From: Akkermansia muciniphila
GTDB lineage: Bacteria; Verrucomicrobiota; Verrucomicrobiia; Verrucomicrobiales; Akkermansiaceae
DNA length: 64,000 nucleotides
Assembly: GCA_945888515.1 (NCBI GenBank)
Contig: CAMDAD010000005.1
Location: 1-64,000, forward strand
Reading direction: 5' to 3'
The position numbers and the translations under genes are program-made. Below, in pieces: positions 942-46,326 of this stretch; the stretch's first letter is position 1; the number at the start of each line of letters is the position of its first letter. Under the pieces are notes generated by a model. That model made no database searches and had not been told where the DNA came from. It saw only the letters and a list, made by a program, of their open reading frames with translations.

Positions 942-2678
942 TTACCGCTTCTCCTTCGGCAGTTTCAGCCATTCAGTGATTTTTTCTAACGAAAGTGTAT
1001 TGATGACATCTTCGCGGCGCAGCCAGCCTTTGCGGGCGAGGCGGACGCCGAAGTGGAGGAACTGGAGTTGTTCTGTTTTGTGGGCGTCCGGATTGATGGA
1101 GCAGAGTACGCCCTTGTCGCGCGCGCGGTGCCACCAACGCCAGTCCATGTCGAGGCGCATGGGGTTGCAGTTGAGCTCGATGACGGTGCGGGTTTCCGCA
1201 GCGCAGTCGATAATTTTGGCGATGTTCACAGAGTATGCTTCGCGCTTGAGCAGGAGGCGGCCGGTGAGGTGGCCGAGCATGGTGACGTGCTCGTTTTCCA
1301 TGGCGCGGATGATGCGGCGGGTCATGTCGTCTTCACTGAGGGTGAAGGCGTTGTGGACGGAGGCAACGCAGTAGTCGAGCTGGGCTAGGATGTCATCGGA
1401 GAAATCGAGCGTGCCGTCTTTGAGGATGTCCACTTCGGAGCCGGCGAGGAGGCGGAAGCCATCGAGAGATTCATTCAGCGCACGGATGTTCGCGCATTGC
1501 TGTAGCAGTCGATCTTCGTGCAGGCCGTTTGCTTGAAACGAGGACTTCGAATGATCAGCAATCCCGAGATACTGCAGTCCCAGCTCTTGCGCAGCGGCGG
1601 CCATTTCTTCTAACGAATTTTTGCCGTCGGACGCGGTAGTGTGATTGTGAAAGGTGCCGCGCAGGTTGCTGATATCGATCAGACGCGGTAGTTTGCCATG
1701 TTGAGCGGCTTCGATTTCGCCCATGTTTTCTCGTAGTTCTGGCTCGATGAAAGAGAGCCCCAGAGCTTCATAGATGTCTTTTTCGTCGTGGACCACGGGC
1801 AGGGGAGCCGCGTCGTCGTTGACGCGTGTGAAGTCATATTCATTGAGGGACCAGCCTTTGCGCAGCGAGAGTTGGCGCAGGGCGACGTTGTGTTCCTTCG
1901 AGCCGGAAAAATACTGTAGTGCGAAGGGAAACTGGGCGTTTGAAACCGCGCGCAGATCGCACTGCAGGCCGTTATCGAGAATGACCGAGGCCTTGGTCTC
2001 GCCGTGAGCGAGAATTTTCTGAATGCCAGGAAGCGTCGTAAAAAACGATGTAATTTCGGTGGGCTGGGACGTGGCGACGAGGAGATCGATATCGTGCACA
2101 GTTTCCTTGGCTCGGCGGTATGATCCGCAAACCGCTACGCGCAGCGTATCCGGGTGATTGCGTAGTTGGTCCAGCATGTCCTCCACCACATGCGCGACGT
2201 TGCCTAGGCGGAAAATACCGGCATGGCTTTCGCGATGGGCGATCGCTTCTAACAGATTGTTTTGTGTTTTCGCGCCGAAACCTGGTGTTCCGGCGATGCG
2301 GTTCTCGAGGCAAGCTTGTTTCAGATCGGCGACCGAGCATAGGCCTAGGTCACGGTGGAGAATTTTGATTTTTTTGGCACCCAGCCCCTGCAGTTCGAAA
2401 AGCTCAAACAATCCAGCGGGAAATTCTGCGCGCAGATTTTCATGGAACGCCAATTTCCCTGTGGTCGCCATCTCGTGCAGCTTGTCGCGCAGCGCCTCGC
2501 CTATGCCCTTGATGCCCGTGAGTTGATTTGCGGTTGCCAAGGCGACGATGTCATCGGGAAACGACCGCACCGTCTCCGCACCGCTGCGGTAGGCCTTAAT
2601 CTTGAAAGGATTCTCGTCCTTCAGTTCTAACAAAAGAGCGATTTCTTCTAGGATGGTAACCATTTCCTCGCGCGACAT
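942..2678 (-). CDS. polX: DNA polymerase/3'-5' exonuclease PolX
   Basis: This 578-residue protein has the standard bacterial PolX architecture. An N-terminal helix-hairpin-helix region carries GIKGIGEA at about 54-61 and GFGAKT at about 133-138. The family X nucleotidyltransferase core has CGSYRRAKETVHDIDLLV at about 184-201, with metal-binding Asp196, Asp198 and probably Asp241. The C-terminal PHP phosphoesterase domain has FHNHTTASDG at 343-352, IADHS at 373-377, GSEVDI, SVH at 440-442 and PDAH near 530. In characterised homologues the polymerase fills short gaps in base excision repair and the PHP domain provides a Mn-dependent 3'-5' exonuclease. The ATG start precedes the conserved N-terminal helix directly. 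It is followed on the same strand by the truncated recombinase and preceded by a small hypothetical gene. Confidence 0.95.
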   Translation of the reverse strand: MSREEMVTILEEIALLLELKDENPFKIKAYRSGAETVRSFPDDIVALATANQLTGIKGIGEALRDKLHEMATTGKLAFHENLRAEFPAGLFELFELQGLGAKKIKILHRDLGLCSVADLKQACLENRIAGTPGFGAKTQNNLLEAIAHRESHAGIFRLGNVAHVVEDMLDQLRNHPDTLRVAVCGSYRRAKETVHDIDLLVATSQPTEITSFFTTLPGIQKILAHGETKASVILDNGLQCDLRAVSNAQFPFALQYFSGSKEHNVALRQLSLRKGWSLNEYDFTRVNDDAAPLPVVHDEKDIYEALGLSFIEPELRENMGEIEAAQHGKLPRLIDISNLRGTFHNHTTASDGKNSLEEMAAAAQELGLQYLGIADHSKSSFQANGLHEDRLLQQCANIRALNESLDGFRLLAGSEVDILKDGTLDFSDDILAQLDYCVASVHNAFTLSEDDMTRRIIRAMENEHVTMLGHLTGRLLLKREAYSVNIAKIIDCAAETRTVIELNCNPMRLDMDWRWWHRARDKGVLCSINPDAHKTEQLQFLHFGVRLARKGWLRREDVINTLSLEKITEWLKLPKEKR

Positions 2679-2720
2679 GGAACGAGCGTAAAACAGCCGC
2701 GTGAAAAGAAAAGCATGGAT

Positions 2721-2924
2721 TCAGGAAAGCAGCTCCTCGCGAAAGGCACGGTGCAGATCGGTGGCGGGGTCGGTGGTATTTTGTGAGGGAAAGGGCACCT
2801 GCTTCTGAGCTTGCCGTAGCCAGAGGTGAAACGGGATGCCAGTTTTTTCCGCGTGTTCTCTGGCGCGCGATTGCGCTTGTTGCCAGAGTTGGTCCGATGA
2901 CGGCGTGGTAGAGTTCTGCTTCAT
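2721..2924 (-). CDS. Small hypothetical protein (67 aa)
   Basis: A short frame sits in the gap between lpxI and polX, on their strand. The peptide is hydrophilic, Gln/Arg-rich and probably helical (LWQQAQSRAREHAEKTG), with an acidic C-terminal end. It has no signal peptide, membrane segment or recognisable motif. ATG start at 2924; I see no convincing Shine-Dalgarno. It ends 43 bp before polX. I do not recognise the family. Support is positional and by amino-acid composition, so a spurious frame remains possible. Confidence 0.5.
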   Translation of the reverse strand: MKQNSTTPSSDQLWQQAQSRAREHAEKTGIPFHLWLRQAQKQVPFPSQNTTDPATDLHRAFREELLS

Positions 2925-2991
2925 GGTGAGAGCCCAGATCTCAGCAGCTCGGGATGAAGAAATGATGAAGCCGCCGTGAAAAGAGCGTGGA

Positions 2992-3813
2992 TCACGCGAA
3001 TGCCACGAGCGTTATGTGCTTTTCCTTACACAACGCGGCAATGCGGTCTTTTTCCAAGAGCAAGGTTTTTCCCGCTTCCACAGCGATAATGCCCACGCCT
3101 GCCTCGGCGCAGGTGAGAATGGTTTGCGCTCCGATGACTGGGATATCGAAACGGAAATCTTGGTTGGGTTTCGATACCTTTACCATAGTCACCGCCTTAC
3201 CGCGTCCCAGCACGCCGCCGCGTTTGATGCAAGCATTGGTGCCTTCGAACGCCTCCACTGCCAGCACCGTGCCGTGGCGCACCACAACGGTTTGTCCGAT
3301 GTCTAGCCGCGAGCTTTCCTTGGCGATGCGTTGGCCGAAACGCACATCGTCCCAAGCGCGGCTTTTGAGAGTAGGGCCGCAGATGTGGCCTTCCGGCGCC
3401 AGCAGGTCCTCCATGAAAGTCGTGGCGGGTAGCAGCGTGATGCCGTCTTTGTGCAACTCGTTCGCGATGGCACCAAAGAGGCTCTCCGCATGACGCTCCT
3501 TGACTTTGGCGAGCATGAAAAGGAGACGCATGTCCGGACGTAGGTCGAAAAGATTTTTCGGCGCGATTTGTCCGACCATGATGGCCTCGGTGACGCCCTG
3601 CGACTTGAAGTAGCGGATTAGCTTACCGAGTTGCCCGACGCGGAACCACTCGATCGAATCCACGAGCGGCGTGAGACTTGCGGCATCGGTTTCATTTTCA
3701 AAAGCGGCGACGCTTAGCTTCACTGGCTCCGCTTGTGCGCGTGCGGAGCTGGCAAAAGTCGAGGGGTAGACTCCGTTGCCAGCGATGATGCCGATGTTAC
3801 GCGTGGTTGCCAT
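2992..3813 (-). CDS. lpxI: UDP-2,3-diacylglucosamine pyrophosphatase LpxI (DUF1009)
   Basis: A 273-residue protein of the LpxI family, which hydrolyses UDP-2,3-diacylglucosamine to lipid X in lipid A synthesis and replaces LpxH in many non-gammaproteobacteria. Visible family features are the N-terminal Rossmann-like start GIIAGNGVYP, MVGQIAPKNLF in the middle, VVVRHGTVLAVEAFEGTNA, and the C-terminal PVIGAQTILTCAEAG and GIIAVEAGKTLLLEK. I chose the ATG at 3813 because homologues begin only a few residues before the GIIAGNG motif; an upstream TTG at 3876 would add an unrelated 21-residue tail. Its presence supports an outer membrane with lipid A, consistent with Lnt, TonB-receptor and TolC-type genes in the window. 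Confidence 0.92.
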   Translation of the reverse strand: MATTRNIGIIAGNGVYPSTFASSARAQAEPVKLSVAAFENETDAASLTPLVDSIEWFRVGQLGKLIRYFKSQGVTEAIMVGQIAPKNLFDLRPDMRLLFMLAKVKERHAESLFGAIANELHKDGITLLPATTFMEDLLAPEGHICGPTLKSRAWDDVRFGQRIAKESSRLDIGQTVVVRHGTVLAVEAFEGTNACIKRGGVLGRGKAVTMVKVSKPNQDFRFDIPVIGAQTILTCAEAGVGIIAVEAGKTLLLEKDRIAALCKEKHITLVAFA

Positions 3814-7502: not shown

Positions 7503-7580
7503 ACAGCGGGAGTCTTTCGCATATGCGAAACACCGAATATTACTCTCGACGCGTCACGGACTTTGGATTAGGAAATTCGT

Positions 7581-42956: not shown

Positions 42957-43412
42957 TCAAAATACGTTTTCCACCCGATTGATCCGCGGGGGAATTCCTT
43001 CTTCGAGGATGATCTCGATGACATCGAAGCGCCACGGGATACGCCGAGTTTTGAGGAGCTTGAGCCAGGAATTCGCGCCTCGCTCAATGAGTTCCTGCTT
43101 GCTGCGGTCCACGGCATCGAGCGGACGTCCGACGCCACCCGCGCGGCGGGTTTTGACCTCGATGAACAGCAGTAGCTTGCCGCGCCGTGCGACGATATCG
43201 ACCTCACCCCCTTGGGGAGCACGGTAGTTTCGATAGAGGACCTTTTCTCCATGCGCGCGCAGCCACTGGCAGGCGATGCGTTCGCCGAACTCTCCCACCT
43301 CCTGCGAAGTCCACGGGGTGCCGTCAGTGTGAATCAAGCGGCAGGGAGAGTTGAGCAACCGGCTGAAACGAGCGACGATGAATGCGACAGGGCCCGTGAA
43401 GATGGAGTGCAT
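42957..43412 (-). CDS. YraN family protein (UPF0102 nuclease-like)
   Basis: A protein of the YraN family, a restriction-endonuclease-like fold: VGEFGERIACQWLRAHGEKVLYRNYRAPQGGEVDIVARR with EVDIV, then FIEVKTRR (the PD-(D/E)XK-like E-x-K triad) and RFDVIEI. Size is 151 residues from ATG 43412, somewhat longer than the usual 115-130; the extra N-terminal part is arginine- and hydrophobic-rich. A TTG at 43337 would give 126. From the ATG it overlaps the rnhB 3' end by 89 bp, so the two are transcribed together, rnhB first. Molecular function is unproven; a role in recombination or DNA uptake has been suggested for relatives. Confidence 0.8.
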   Translation of the reverse strand: MHSIFTGPVAFIVARFSRLLNSPCRLIHTDGTPWTSQEVGEFGERIACQWLRAHGEKVLYRNYRAPQGGEVDIVARRGKLLLFIEVKTRRAGGVGRPLDAVDRSKQELIERGANSWLKLLKTRRIPWRFDVIEIILEEGIPPRINRVENVF

Positions 43413-43959
43413 GGAGGTGCTGCTTTGTACCATAGCCGCTGTGACGTTCAAAGCCATATTGCGGAAATTCCTTGGCGTATTCTGCCATGCGTTGATCACG
43501 ACTGACCTTGGCGATGATGCTGGCGGCCGCGATGGAGAGAGATTTGCCATCACCCTTGACGATGCCCTGATGAGGGAGGGGAAACTGCTTCACAGGGAGG
43601 CCATCGATGAGGCAATGATCAATCGTGATCTGATACTTTTGCTGCAAGTTCATGGCGGCGGCGGCCATGCCTTGATGGGTGGCGCGTAGGATGTTGAGGG
43701 AGTCGATGGTGGCGGCATCGATCTCGACCTGCGCCCACCAGACAGCGGGGTGTTCGATCAATTGGTGATAAAGTTCCTCGCGTTTTTTGGCGCTGATTTT
43801 TTTGGAATCATCCAGCCCTGGCAGAGAAAAATCGGCGCGCAGGATAACGGCTGCGACCGATACAGGACCGGCGAGAGGCCCGCGTCCGGCTTCATCGATG
43901 CCACAGACCCACGTGTGTCCAGCGGCGCGGGCGGCGTTTTCATACTGCATGTCGGGCAT
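43324..43959 (-). CDS. rnhB: Ribonuclease HII
   Basis: A 211-residue type 2 RNase H that cuts RNA in DNA:RNA duplexes and removes misincorporated ribonucleotides. Motifs: CGIDEAGRGPLAGPV (Asp22 and Glu23 of the active site), DSKKISAKKREEL, IDGLPV (Asp119), and SLSIAAASIIAKVSRD (Asp155). The family's G-R-G catalytic motif is intact. ATG 43959 (MPDMQYEN) is chosen because an upstream frame to 44049 gives a non-homologous tail. yraN follows and overlaps. Confidence 0.95.
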   Translation of the reverse strand: MPDMQYENAARAAGHTWVCGIDEAGRGPLAGPVSVAAVILRADFSLPGLDDSKKISAKKREELYHQLIEHPAVWWAQVEIDAATIDSLNILRATHQGMAAAAMNLQQKYQITIDHCLIDGLPVKQFPLPHQGIVKGDGKSLSIAAASIIAKVSRDQRMAEYAKEFPQYGFERHSGYGTKQHLHALHLHGPCRIHRRSFQPVAQLSLPLDSH

Positions 43960-44000
43960 GGGAGTGAATCGTGAAGAGTGAGGAAGATCGACAGGGGCGG

Positions 44001-44309
44001 TTACTTGTTTCTCAGGGGAACGCGCATGCCACAATGCAAACACTTCCACGAAAAGCAGTTAAAGTAATTAAAAGCTGGGAACTTGCGGCACGGGCGCGAG
44101 TGGAATTTTTGGTGGCAGTGGGGGCAAATGACACTGCTCTCCCCAAAGCCCACGACGATCCACGCTCCCCAGTAAAGAAGGACTGCGGCAAGCATCAGTC
44201 GATCGGACTCAATCAGGAAACAGCCTATGATTATGCCGTAGGGAAGCCAACAAATCGTCAGCAGCAAATACGCGCGCTTGATATTGCGGATGTGCAGGAG
44301 CGCCTTCAT
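44001..44309 (-). CDS. Small membrane protein with C-terminal zinc-ribbon-like Cys pairs (102 aa)
   Basis: From ATG 44309 the protein has two hydrophobic segments (AYLLLTICWLPYGIIIGCFLI, then LMLAAVLLYWGAWIVVGF) and then CPHCHQKFHS followed 13 residues later by SWKCLHCGM, a likely C-x2-C...C-x2-C zinc ribbon. I do not recognise the family. A frame upstream to 44438 overlaps the start of the GxxExxY flank region and is not used. It lies 42 bp upstream of rnhB on the same strand and may share its transcript. Confidence 0.65.
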   Translation of the reverse strand: MKALLHIRNIKRAYLLLTICWLPYGIIIGCFLIESDRLMLAAVLLYWGAWIVVGFGESSVICPHCHQKFHSRPCRKFPAFNYFNCFSWKCLHCGMRVPLRNK

Positions 44310-44480
44310 CAAAGGATCAAGTCGAGGCGCGGGCGAGTGATCTGCAAGATTGGTCGTCACTGTACTTTCGAGAGTTTGGAAACAAATGCTGATGTAATTC
44401 CTGAAATCACTCCCTGCAAGTACGGATTGGGCAGGCATCGACCGCAGAGCGGGCTAGAAACTCGAATGAAGCTCCTATTT

Positions 44481-44571
44481 CCACAGAAGGCAACAAAGGG
44501 CACAAAGGATTCCTAACCTTCGTTTTCTTTCTTTCCTTCTGTAAAACTAATCGCCTTCAGACTGTATTCAC
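44481..44571. repeat. Left copy of the ~85-bp imperfect direct repeat flanking the GxxExxY gene
   Basis: It begins CCACAGAAGGCAAC and ends near GACTGTATTC. It is close to identical to 45036-45118, with the core ACAAAGGATTCC and TTCGTTTTCTTTCTTTCC shared. The first core is ACAGAAGG (44483-44490), its exact inverse CCTTCTGT at 44535-44542, so each copy can fold as a hairpin of about 60 nt. Confidence 0.85.
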
Positions 44572-44574
44572 GCC

Positions 44575-44976
44575 ATGCATCCCTTATTTAAGAAAGCTGA
44601 CGAACTAAGCAAAACCGTGATCGGTGCAGCCATTGAGGTTCACCGATTGAAAGGCCCTGGATTGATCGAGAGCATTTACGAAAAATGCCTCATGCGAGAA
44701 CTCGACTTACAAAAGCTACAATCAGTAAATCAAAAGGTGGTATTAATCGAATACAAAGGCATCACTTTTGAAGAACCGCTCCGTTTCGACATCCTCGTTG
44801 AGGATTGCTTGCTGCTGGAACTCAAGTGCGTGCAAACCGTGCTACCCATTCATAAGGCGCAACTGTTGAGCTACATGAAGCTGCTCAATATCCCTTTGGG
44901 ACTTTTGATCAACTATCATGAACTGAAGTTGGTGGACGGTATCCAACGCATGATTCTACCCGGAGCGAATCAATAA
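44575..44976 (+). CDS. GxxExxY family protein (PD-(D/E)XK nuclease-like)
   Basis: A 133-residue protein named after its GPGLIESIYEKCL motif: G29-x2-E32-x2-Y35. Downstream RFDILVEDCLLLELKCV carries Asp72, Glu82 and Lys84 spaced like a PD-(D/E)XK nuclease core, and the rest (YMKLLNIPLGLLINYHELKL, 'LINF' type end) is typical. Such genes occur in many copies in several phyla, often inside or next to repeat sequences; their molecular role is unknown. It starts 4 bp after the left repeat copy and ends 60 bp before the right copy, so the gene and the two repeats form one unit of about 640 bp. No transposase or target duplication is seen. Confidence 0.9.
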   Translation: MHPLFKKADELSKTVIGAAIEVHRLKGPGLIESIYEKCLMRELDLQKLQSVNQKVVLIEYKGITFEEPLRFDILVEDCLLLELKCVQTVLPIHKAQLLSYMKLLNIPLGLLINYHELKLVDGIQRMILPGANQ

Positions 44977-45324
44977 AAAAATCGATCTATGTCCCCCCAC
45001 AAGAATACCATCGCCGCAAAAACCAAAAGTCACTTCTACAGAAGGCAACTGAGGACACAAAGGATTCCATTCCTTCGTTTTCTTTCTTTCCTTCTGTAAG
45101 AAAATAGCCTCAAGACTAAGAAAGCTGTTGCGACATACTGTCTTCCCATCGCAGGCCCAGAAGCCTGGTAGTGTAATGCGGTAGCCTAGGTCACGCTTGT
45201 CGATCACTTCACTTCACTTCACTTCCCTGACCTCCCTGTGATGACGCAAAAGGATACGGCACGGTAGAGATAGAAGTGTGTTCTGTTTCGCGTATGGTAG
45301 GGTGCTGTCTGTCGGCCTTGACTT
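44977..45324. other. Gene-free stretch with the right repeat copy and a CACTT tandem
   Basis: These 348 bases hold the right repeat (see 45036-45118) and a short simple repeat, four CACTT units at 45205-45225. The remainder before DUF1080 shows no convincing promoter or terminator. No start codon with a good coding frame appears. Confidence 0.5.
45036..45118. repeat. Right copy of the ~85-bp imperfect direct repeat flanking the GxxExxY gene
   Basis: It starts CTACAGAAGGCAAC and contains ACACAAAGGATTCC and CCTTCGTTTTCTTTC, then CCTTCTGT at 45090-45097, the inverse of ACAGAAGG at 45038-45045. About six mismatches separate its first 62 bases from the left copy; the flank (TAAGAAAATAGCC vs TAAAACTAATCGCC) is weaker. 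Confidence 0.85.
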
Positions 45325-46326
45325 ATGATCACTCGATTTTTCCTTTGCTGTTTTATTGCTACGGTGGGTGCCTGGGCGGCGCCTGCGAATCAAGCGACGT
45401 GGATTGATCCCGCCGTGGCATTGCGGGAGGATCCGGATTTTGCGGTTCAGGGGGAATACCGCAGTGCCGGCGAGGCCGGTGCATGGGGCGCGCAGGTGGT
45501 GGCTCTGGGCGGTGGGGCGTTTGATGCTTATTTGTTAGAAGGCGGACTACCGGGCGCGGGGTGGGAACCGGGAAAAACGCGCCTCAAGCTGACGGGAGCG
45601 CGCAAGGGGGAAGCGATTGAGTTTGCGGAGCAGGCCACGAAGATCCAGTGCCGCTGGTCCGAGGGAAAACTCCAGGTGACTCTTGCCGATGGAGCAAAGC
45701 ACATGCTGACGCGCCTCGAACGGCAGAGCCCTACCCTGGGAAGCAAAGCGCCTGCAGGGGCCGTGGTGTTGTTTGATGGAACATCCGCGGATGGCTGGGA
45801 AAAAGGGAAAATGGAAAACGGTTTCTTGCAAGCGACGAGCTGCATGAGCAAGCAACACTTTGGCGATTACAGCCTGCATGTGGAATTCCGCACACCGTAC
45901 AAGCCTCAGGCACGGGGACAAGGGAGGGGCAACAGTGGCATTTATCTGAATGGTCGCTGGGAAACGCAGGTGCTCGATTCCTTTGGTCTTGAAGGACGTG
46001 ATAACGAATGCGGCGGTGTGTATTCCCTCTCGCCGCCGCGCCTGAACATGTGCCTGCCGCCGCTGACGTGGCAGACCTACGACGTGGATTTCACAGGGGC
46101 GACGTTTGATGCGGAGGGCAAACGCATGGCTTGGCCGCGTGTCACCGTGCGGCTCAATGGCGTGGTGGTGCATGAGAATTTGGAGTTGAAAAAAGACTGC
46201 ACGGCGGCGGCGCCACTTTCTGCGCCCTTGCAGACGGCAAAGGGACCGATTTTCCTGCAAGACCACGGCAATCCGGTGGTCTATCGTAACATCTGGGTTA
46301 TGCCTCGGGAGCAGGCGGGCAAGTGA
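45325..46326 (+). CDS. Exported DUF1080 (3-keto-disaccharide hydrolase-like) protein
   Basis: A 333-residue protein with a signal peptide (MITRFFLCCFIATVGAWAAP). The second half (about 145-330) is a DUF1080 domain: VVLFDGTSADGWEKG, DYSLHVEFRTPYKP, RGNSGIYLNGRWETQVLDSFG, the LPPLTWQTYDVDFTG segment and WPRVTVRLNGVVVHENLELK, ending GPIFLQDHGNPVVYRNIWV. This lectin-like beta-sandwich is common and expanded in Verrucomicrobiota and Planctomycetota. Some members act on 3-keto-glycosides, others have no tested activity. The N-terminal ~140 residues are less conserved. Its 3' end overlaps the convergent tilS by 29 bp. Confidence 0.92.
   Translation: MITRFFLCCFIATVGAWAAPANQATWIDPAVALREDPDFAVQGEYRSAGEAGAWGAQVVALGGGAFDAYLLEGGLPGAGWEPGKTRLKLTGARKGEAIEFAEQATKIQCRWSEGKLQVTLADGAKHMLTRLERQSPTLGSKAPAGAVVLFDGTSADGWEKGKMENGFLQATSCMSKQHFGDYSLHVEFRTPYKPQARGQGRGNSGIYLNGRWETQVLDSFGLEGRDNECGGVYSLSPPRLNMCLPPLTWQTYDVDFTGATFDAEGKRMAWPRVTVRLNGVVVHENLELKKDCTAAAPLSAPLQTAKGPIFLQDHGNPVVYRNIWVMPREQAGK

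Follow-up and report, generated by a model that had tools for sequence, protein, structure and literature searches.

The window analysed here comprises 64,000 nucleotides (nt) of an Akkermansia muciniphila assembly (GCA_945888515.1, contig CAMDAD010000005.1, positions 1 to 64,000 of the forward strand) and contains a small gene for a GxxExxY protein between two hairpin-forming repeats. Gene and repeats together are probably a minimal insertion element of a widespread type, composed of stem arms with ~9-nt units and a small open reading frame (ORF) for a PD-(D/E)XK protein. The parts of the presumed element are:

44479..44544, + strand: hairpin copy 1, with the stem ACAGAAGG...CCTTCTGT and the 9-10-nt units ACAGAAGGCA-ACAAAGGGC-ACAAAGGAT
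44575..44976, + strand: gene for the GxxExxY protein (PF13366, TIGR04256), 133 amino acids, predicted PD-(D/E)XK fold
45034..45099, + strand: hairpin copy 2, a direct repeat of copy 1 according to repeat comparison and folding
44479..45099, + strand: presumed element (hairpin, gene, hairpin), wholly missing at the syntenic site of the congener G009, which corresponds to window positions ~44300 to ~45336

Both hairpin copies are 66 nt long, 89% identical and in direct orientation, with 555 nt from start to start. With copy 2 as query against its own genome, copy 1 was matched at an E-value of 4e-19 and the repeat pair is therefore not a product of chance. The predicted folding energies of −20.1 kcal/mol for copy 1 (z −4.0) and −24.1 kcal/mol for copy 2 (z −5.8) were not equalled by any of the respective shuffled sequences. 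This is in agreement with an earlier note on this DNA, which had described hairpin-capable direct repeats flanking the gene. The note had given their length as ~85 bp; a weaker likeness, judged by eye, does continue beyond the 66-nt core, but the core of copy 1 stops 30 nt and not 3 nt upstream of the ATG at 44575; it is the weak extension alone that approaches the gene. The GxxExxY ORF is intact between both hairpins, and the predicted RNA of the element contains two separate hairpins with no arm-to-arm fold across the gene. Apart from a 22-nt palindrome at 7512, no other strong hairpin was found in the 64-kb window, and a search of the window region against Rfam revealed no family, with one sub-threshold chance match to a plant microRNA.

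The genes on either side served as anchors for the comparison with related genomes:

43324..44049, − strand: left neighbour, a ribonuclease HII-like ORF, presumably rnhB as recognised by its sequence, used in the empty-site test
45325..46326, + strand: right neighbour, an ORF that appears to carry a signal peptide and resembles hydrolases of the DUF1080 type, taken from the ORF list and synteny with G009

The closest congener is G009, whose RnhB is 94% identical to that of the window genome. It is syntenic on both sides of the element (82.8% identity over ~1 kb and 82.7% over ~0.9 kb), while its site measures 224 nt compared to 1035 nt in the window, and the gene and both hairpins are missing. 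A short run of CACTT pentamers downstream of copy 2 (45205-45226) is also missing at this empty site. Further hairpin copies were sought by similarity search. In the window's own genome, the 66-nt repeat was detected at the window pair and as one partial copy on contig 9 (C9:85706) and nowhere else, and no GxxExxY gene was present in the 700 nt read around the partial copy. The congener G004 carries three gene-free copies of the window hairpin (L007-L009). It also encodes the best relative of the window protein (L038, 89-90% amino acid identity), which is located at a different site and is followed downstream by several tandem copies of the window's hairpin family. As the nucleotide sequences of the two genes are only ~75% identical and synonymous sites are saturated, the relocation must be old. 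These comparisons support the interpretation that gene and repeats behave as one insertion unit. The earlier note had reached the same view and had tied it to occurrences of the repeat elsewhere and to a relative with an empty site, both of which were found.

The window protein matches PF13366 (PDDEXK_3; E 9e-36, 123.3 bits with a cut-off of 22) and TIGR04256 (GxxExxY; E 1e-37, 128.8 bits with a cut-off of 35). Throughout an alignment of 94 members, E32, D72 and Q96 are invariant and K84 is nearly invariant. The AlphaFold (AF2) model shows a PD-(D/E)XK fold with a pLDDT of 95.8, and the nearest solved structures are SSO0001 (Z 9.2), which we take to be Cas4-like, with restriction-type enzymes and the Holliday resolvase Hjc (Z 7.0) ranking next. 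A sequence search of the PDB with the window protein returned no convincing relative. Based on profiles and the modelled fold, the protein belongs to the PD-(D/E)XK nuclease superfamily and is a putative nuclease. The dN/dS values of GxxExxY genes are mostly between 0.02 and 0.12, which indicates strong purifying selection.

TIGR04256 proteins are encoded in 44 of the 57 genomes searched, i.e. the window's own genome and its relatives, with 1-7 copies each. We analysed two sets of GxxExxY loci, namely 92 related loci and 81 loci from named genomes of over a dozen phyla. The 200 nt upstream of each gene were aligned with the 200 nt downstream, partners swapped between loci served as the null, 78 neighbouring genes from the same loci were used as a control, and arms were called at an inverted score of at least 30. 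Median inverted scores were 37.5 for the related loci (17 for swapped partners; 68 of the 92 above the 95th percentile) and 34 for the broad set (18 for swapped partners). The arm threshold was reached by 61/92 and 52/81 GxxExxY genes in comparison to 1/78 control genes. Typically, the end of an upstream host gene is followed by a 5' arm towards the start codon, the ORF and a 3' arm, which is separated from the GxxExxY stop codon by a few nt up to some tens of nt. In the predicted RNA of such loop-type elements, the arms pair with each other (28/29, 29/29 and 22/28 nt). As judged by the direct-repeat scores, a complete hairpin on each side of the gene is the minority form, to which the window belongs. 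The direct repeats described in the earlier note are real at this locus, but most GxxExxY genes occupy the loop of a single inverted repeat. As a general rule, direct repeats were rejected (medians of 18 for own and 17 for partner-shuffled flanks) and inverted arms were favoured instead.

In Pseudoalteromonas, Colwellia, Paraglaciecola and Pedobacter, the gene lies amid tandem hairpins. Arrays of hairpins of roughly 90-150 nt each were observed in marine gammaproteobacteria and Pedobacter (L198, L182, L186, L208 and L223, around positions 1900-3500). At L161, the gene is situated between direct copies of a 3' arm (~84 nt; 2340-2425 and 2877-2960), as if it had integrated by recombination at the arm. 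One GxxExxY element (L187) is located on a contig filed as a 'Chlamydia trachomatis' metagenome-assembled genome, an organism label that looks doubtful. No match was found in 50,697 phage records, 8 of 72,556 plasmid records contained one, and IMG/VR contributed one locus. Within these collections, phages and plasmids are negligible as a route. No rRNA match was detected in the window region or in 40 relative loci.

All three GxxExxY copies of the window genome adjoin hairpin-type repeats with entirely different sequences. What the arms have in common is a period of ~9 nt and not a repeat sequence. Autocorrelation of the arms peaked at lag 9 (8-10) with a z of about 11 in both independent GxxExxY sets, and the peak persisted when same-site relatives were removed. 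Copy 1 of the window has an identity of 0.60 at lag 9 and 0.58 at lag 10. The units are degenerate, follow a loose C-R-C-N-N-A grammar and vary in sequence from locus to locus (CACGGAT, CGCAAAG, CACTGAT, ACAGGATT), and their polarity relative to the ORF is fixed (76 loci forward, 4 reverse). Similar proteins tend to have similar arms at unrelated sites (rho 0.09, reached by 0 of 999 permutations). In same-site pairs, upstream arms were near-identical (17/17, 37/40 and 37/42 nt) although synonymous divergence (pS) was about 0.5-0.7; in another pair, L075/L085, the upstream arm agreed at 32/50 positions only. Taken together, these patterns support the view that arms and protein belong together and that both are under constraint. 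At one site, 37/87 and 34/64 differing positions were paired in both loci. This is suggestive only of compensatory arm change, since paired stretches are favoured by the alignment itself, and gene conversion would produce the same pattern.

The link between arms and ORF also bears on the possibility that the hairpins are moved in trans. They could be similar to repetitive extragenic palindromes (REP) or miniature inverted-repeat transposable elements and be mobilised by Y1 transposases (REP-associated tyrosine transposases, RAYT) or other transposases, with the GxxExxY gene as a passenger between copies. Y1 transposases are encoded in 17/19 relatives, with seven in the window's genome, and the existence of gene-free hairpin copies would fit. 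However, the presence, period and polarity of the arms are tied to GxxExxY genes, and the Y1 genes have different palindromes of their own without a 9-nt period. REP palindromes carry a GTAG or CGTC tag at their foot (PMC3733652), whereas the window hairpins read TTCYACAGAAGG...CCTTCTGTAA and the tag is missing. We therefore regard this scenario as highly improbable. Identity of the Y1/RAYT hairpins with the repeats studied here was ruled out: 22 Y1 loci contained unrelated palindromes with neither a 9- nor a 7-nt period. These RAYT-like genes (L292-L313) occur several per genome amid their own REP-like palindromes. Both systems consist of dispersed extragenic hairpins with a gene for a small DNA-processing protein among them (PMC3733652), but they differ in protein family and hairpin design and occur side by side in these genomes, each with repeats of its own.

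Most elements are located in operons in sense direction, for example between nuoK and nuoL, pheS and pheT, or nrdB and nrdA, with empty sites in relatives. In 9/10 congeners, the nuoK-nuoL spacer measures 13-24 nt; that of G006 contains a complete element and has a length of 471 nt. In another genus, the pheS-pheT spacer was found empty (mostly 14-55 nt), filled, with a solo 5' arm, with a hairpin only, or with a decayed element. Where the neighbouring genes are co-directional, the element is in sense orientation in 57/62 and 40/47 cases of the two GxxExxY sets. Between pheS-pheT orthologues, the pS of the element was 0.48-0.89 and that of PheS 0.39-0.80. At this spacer, insertion thus appears to be rare, vertical persistence long and loss frequent. 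The idea of the earlier note that gene and repeats move together therefore holds for the inserted unit, but movement seems rare and inheritance long and vertical where this could be checked.

The same anatomy was detected for a second, unrelated protein family. TIGR02436 (four-helix-bundle (4HB)/S23, the family of 23S rRNA intervening sequences (IVS)) is present in 45/57 of the same genomes. Inverted arms with a score of at least 30 were found at 19/30 of its loci, the arms repeat strictly every 7 nt (z about 15, peak again at 14), and 18/20 of its elements between co-directional genes are in sense orientation. Within L100-L129, 4HB genes lie in inverted arms of this period, frequently within operons, for example metK-ahcY, ilvB-ilvN and nuo. 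The spacer between two genes that we take to be nrdB and nrdA, based on sequence recognition, is a hot spot (L130-L159) that is empty or occupied by a 4HB element or by either of two GxxExxY types, depending on the species. In at least two of the GxxExxY-filled spacers, a leftover 4HB 3' arm lies downstream, and hence both kinds succeed each other at shared sites. In the window genome, this spacer (G000:C1:10833-11500, L137) contains a 4HB element with an internal deletion.

Free-standing homing endonucleases are small nuclease ORFs in the spacers of conserved operons, and the same spacer can be occupied repeatedly. The elements described here resemble them in this respect and in the nuclease fold with conserved catalytic residues, which could mean that the protein cuts the element-free allele and that repair copies it into this site with the flanking genes as homology, the arms being secondary. 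However, the periodic stem arms accompany the GxxExxY ORF and are of the same kind at unrelated sites. The similarity of the pheS-pheT element does not exceed that of the host gene, and there is thus no sign of recent allele conversion at this spacer. Such homing appears distinctly improbable.

Several observations weigh against the interpretation as an insertion element with a protein acting on its arms. A third of the loci have no arms at a score of at least 30, and about a quarter have none at 25. The motif-protein association is significant yet weak, and the matches to SSO0001 and Hjc reach the superfamily level only. The neighbours of the window gene diverge, which makes this locus an exception to the operon rule. 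At nucleotide resolution, no insertion event was observed, and the spacers are too short or too diverged for a target-site duplication to be read; the ends of the element are approximate. Divergence of the pheS-pheT element at about the level of the host gene implies that movement is rare, and strong purifying selection could also signal a host function. The latter would agree with a domesticated host gene, the arms of which are regulatory (protein binding sites or mRNA-stabilising stems) instead of insertion ends. Selection, long vertical persistence at pheS-pheT, conserved arm sequence and sense orientation within operons all fit this explanation. It does not account for the patchy distribution, in which close relatives have empty sites, for the occupation of one spacer by unrelated elements, for the gene-free hairpins and solo arms, or for the fact that another, unrelated protein family shows the same anatomy, and we consider it unlikely.

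For the window element, we consider a stem-loop insertion element of the IVS type the most likely explanation, with a PD-(D/E)XK protein that recognises the arms of its own element. As judged from filled and empty sites, the unit of arms and ORF was inserted in, and lost from, intergenic sites. The ORF occupies the loop of the stem in the common form, and in the window form it lies between two direct copies of a whole hairpin. Expression may occur by read-through from host operon transcription. The protein may then bind or cut the repeated unit of its own arms, either as a DNA hairpin or as an RNA stem, and this recognition would promote the spread or maintenance of the element. By analogy with the S23 elements of 23S rRNA, RNase III might cut the element from the host message via the RNA stem, and insertion into essential operons would therefore be tolerated. 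A more general class could comprise stem-loop ORF cassettes whose proteins recognise their arms by a family-specific period (~9 nt for GxxExxY, 7 nt for four-helix-bundle proteins), with the S23 intervening sequences of 23S rRNA as the members inserted into rRNA; we rate the chances of this extension as slightly below even.

Annotations as GxxExxY or 'four helix bundle' protein are found in a very large number of genomes, and neither family has a known role. A shared kind of element, with its own period for each family, would offer the arms as a concrete candidate substrate and would account for the scatter and copy number of both families. It also points to a possible source of the 23S rRNA intervening sequences, and both families may define a broader class. 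Moreover, essential operons routinely carry such sense-oriented inserts, which slot into small gaps between essential genes. Our locus data uphold the earlier statement that GxxExxY genes occur near repeats, which was not traced to a paper. In the open-access literature, to which the search was limited with subscription literature outside it, we found no description of such elements; GxxExxY was named there without a connection to repeats, and searches with arm sequences returned unrelated papers only. This kind of minimal insertion element is apparently undescribed, while IVS-like stem-loop insertion itself is already known.

Among known systems, short units of fixed period are also characteristic of the TAACTGA heptamers of Beggiatoaceae and cyanobacteria, which are mostly intergenic, located upstream of start codons in one orientation and possibly spread horizontally (PMC4679880). 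In contrast to the arms described here, they are almost only direct and not inverted, and no enclosed nuclease or 4HB ORF was described (PMC4679880). There is also a close likeness to the 23S rRNA IVS with their S23p/4HB ORF, the origin and function of which are still called unclear (PMC4990558). The element in the 23S rRNA of Coxiella burnetii has a 28-bp terminal stem, is excised by RNase III, has tandem copies of the heptamer GACAGAT immediately before the S23p start codon and has been called selfish (PMC4990558). Among these systems, RNase III excision is known for rRNA elements only. The window element and its relatives differ from the rRNA IVS in that their protein is of the unrelated PD-(D/E)XK type, their period is ~9 nt and they reside in protein-coding operons or intergenic DNA instead of rRNA genes. 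The free-standing 4HB genes detected in our analysis share the anatomy of the rRNA IVS and the 7-nt period of their short tandem units, and the terminal inverted-repeat stem around the ORF is also general in the GxxExxY family.
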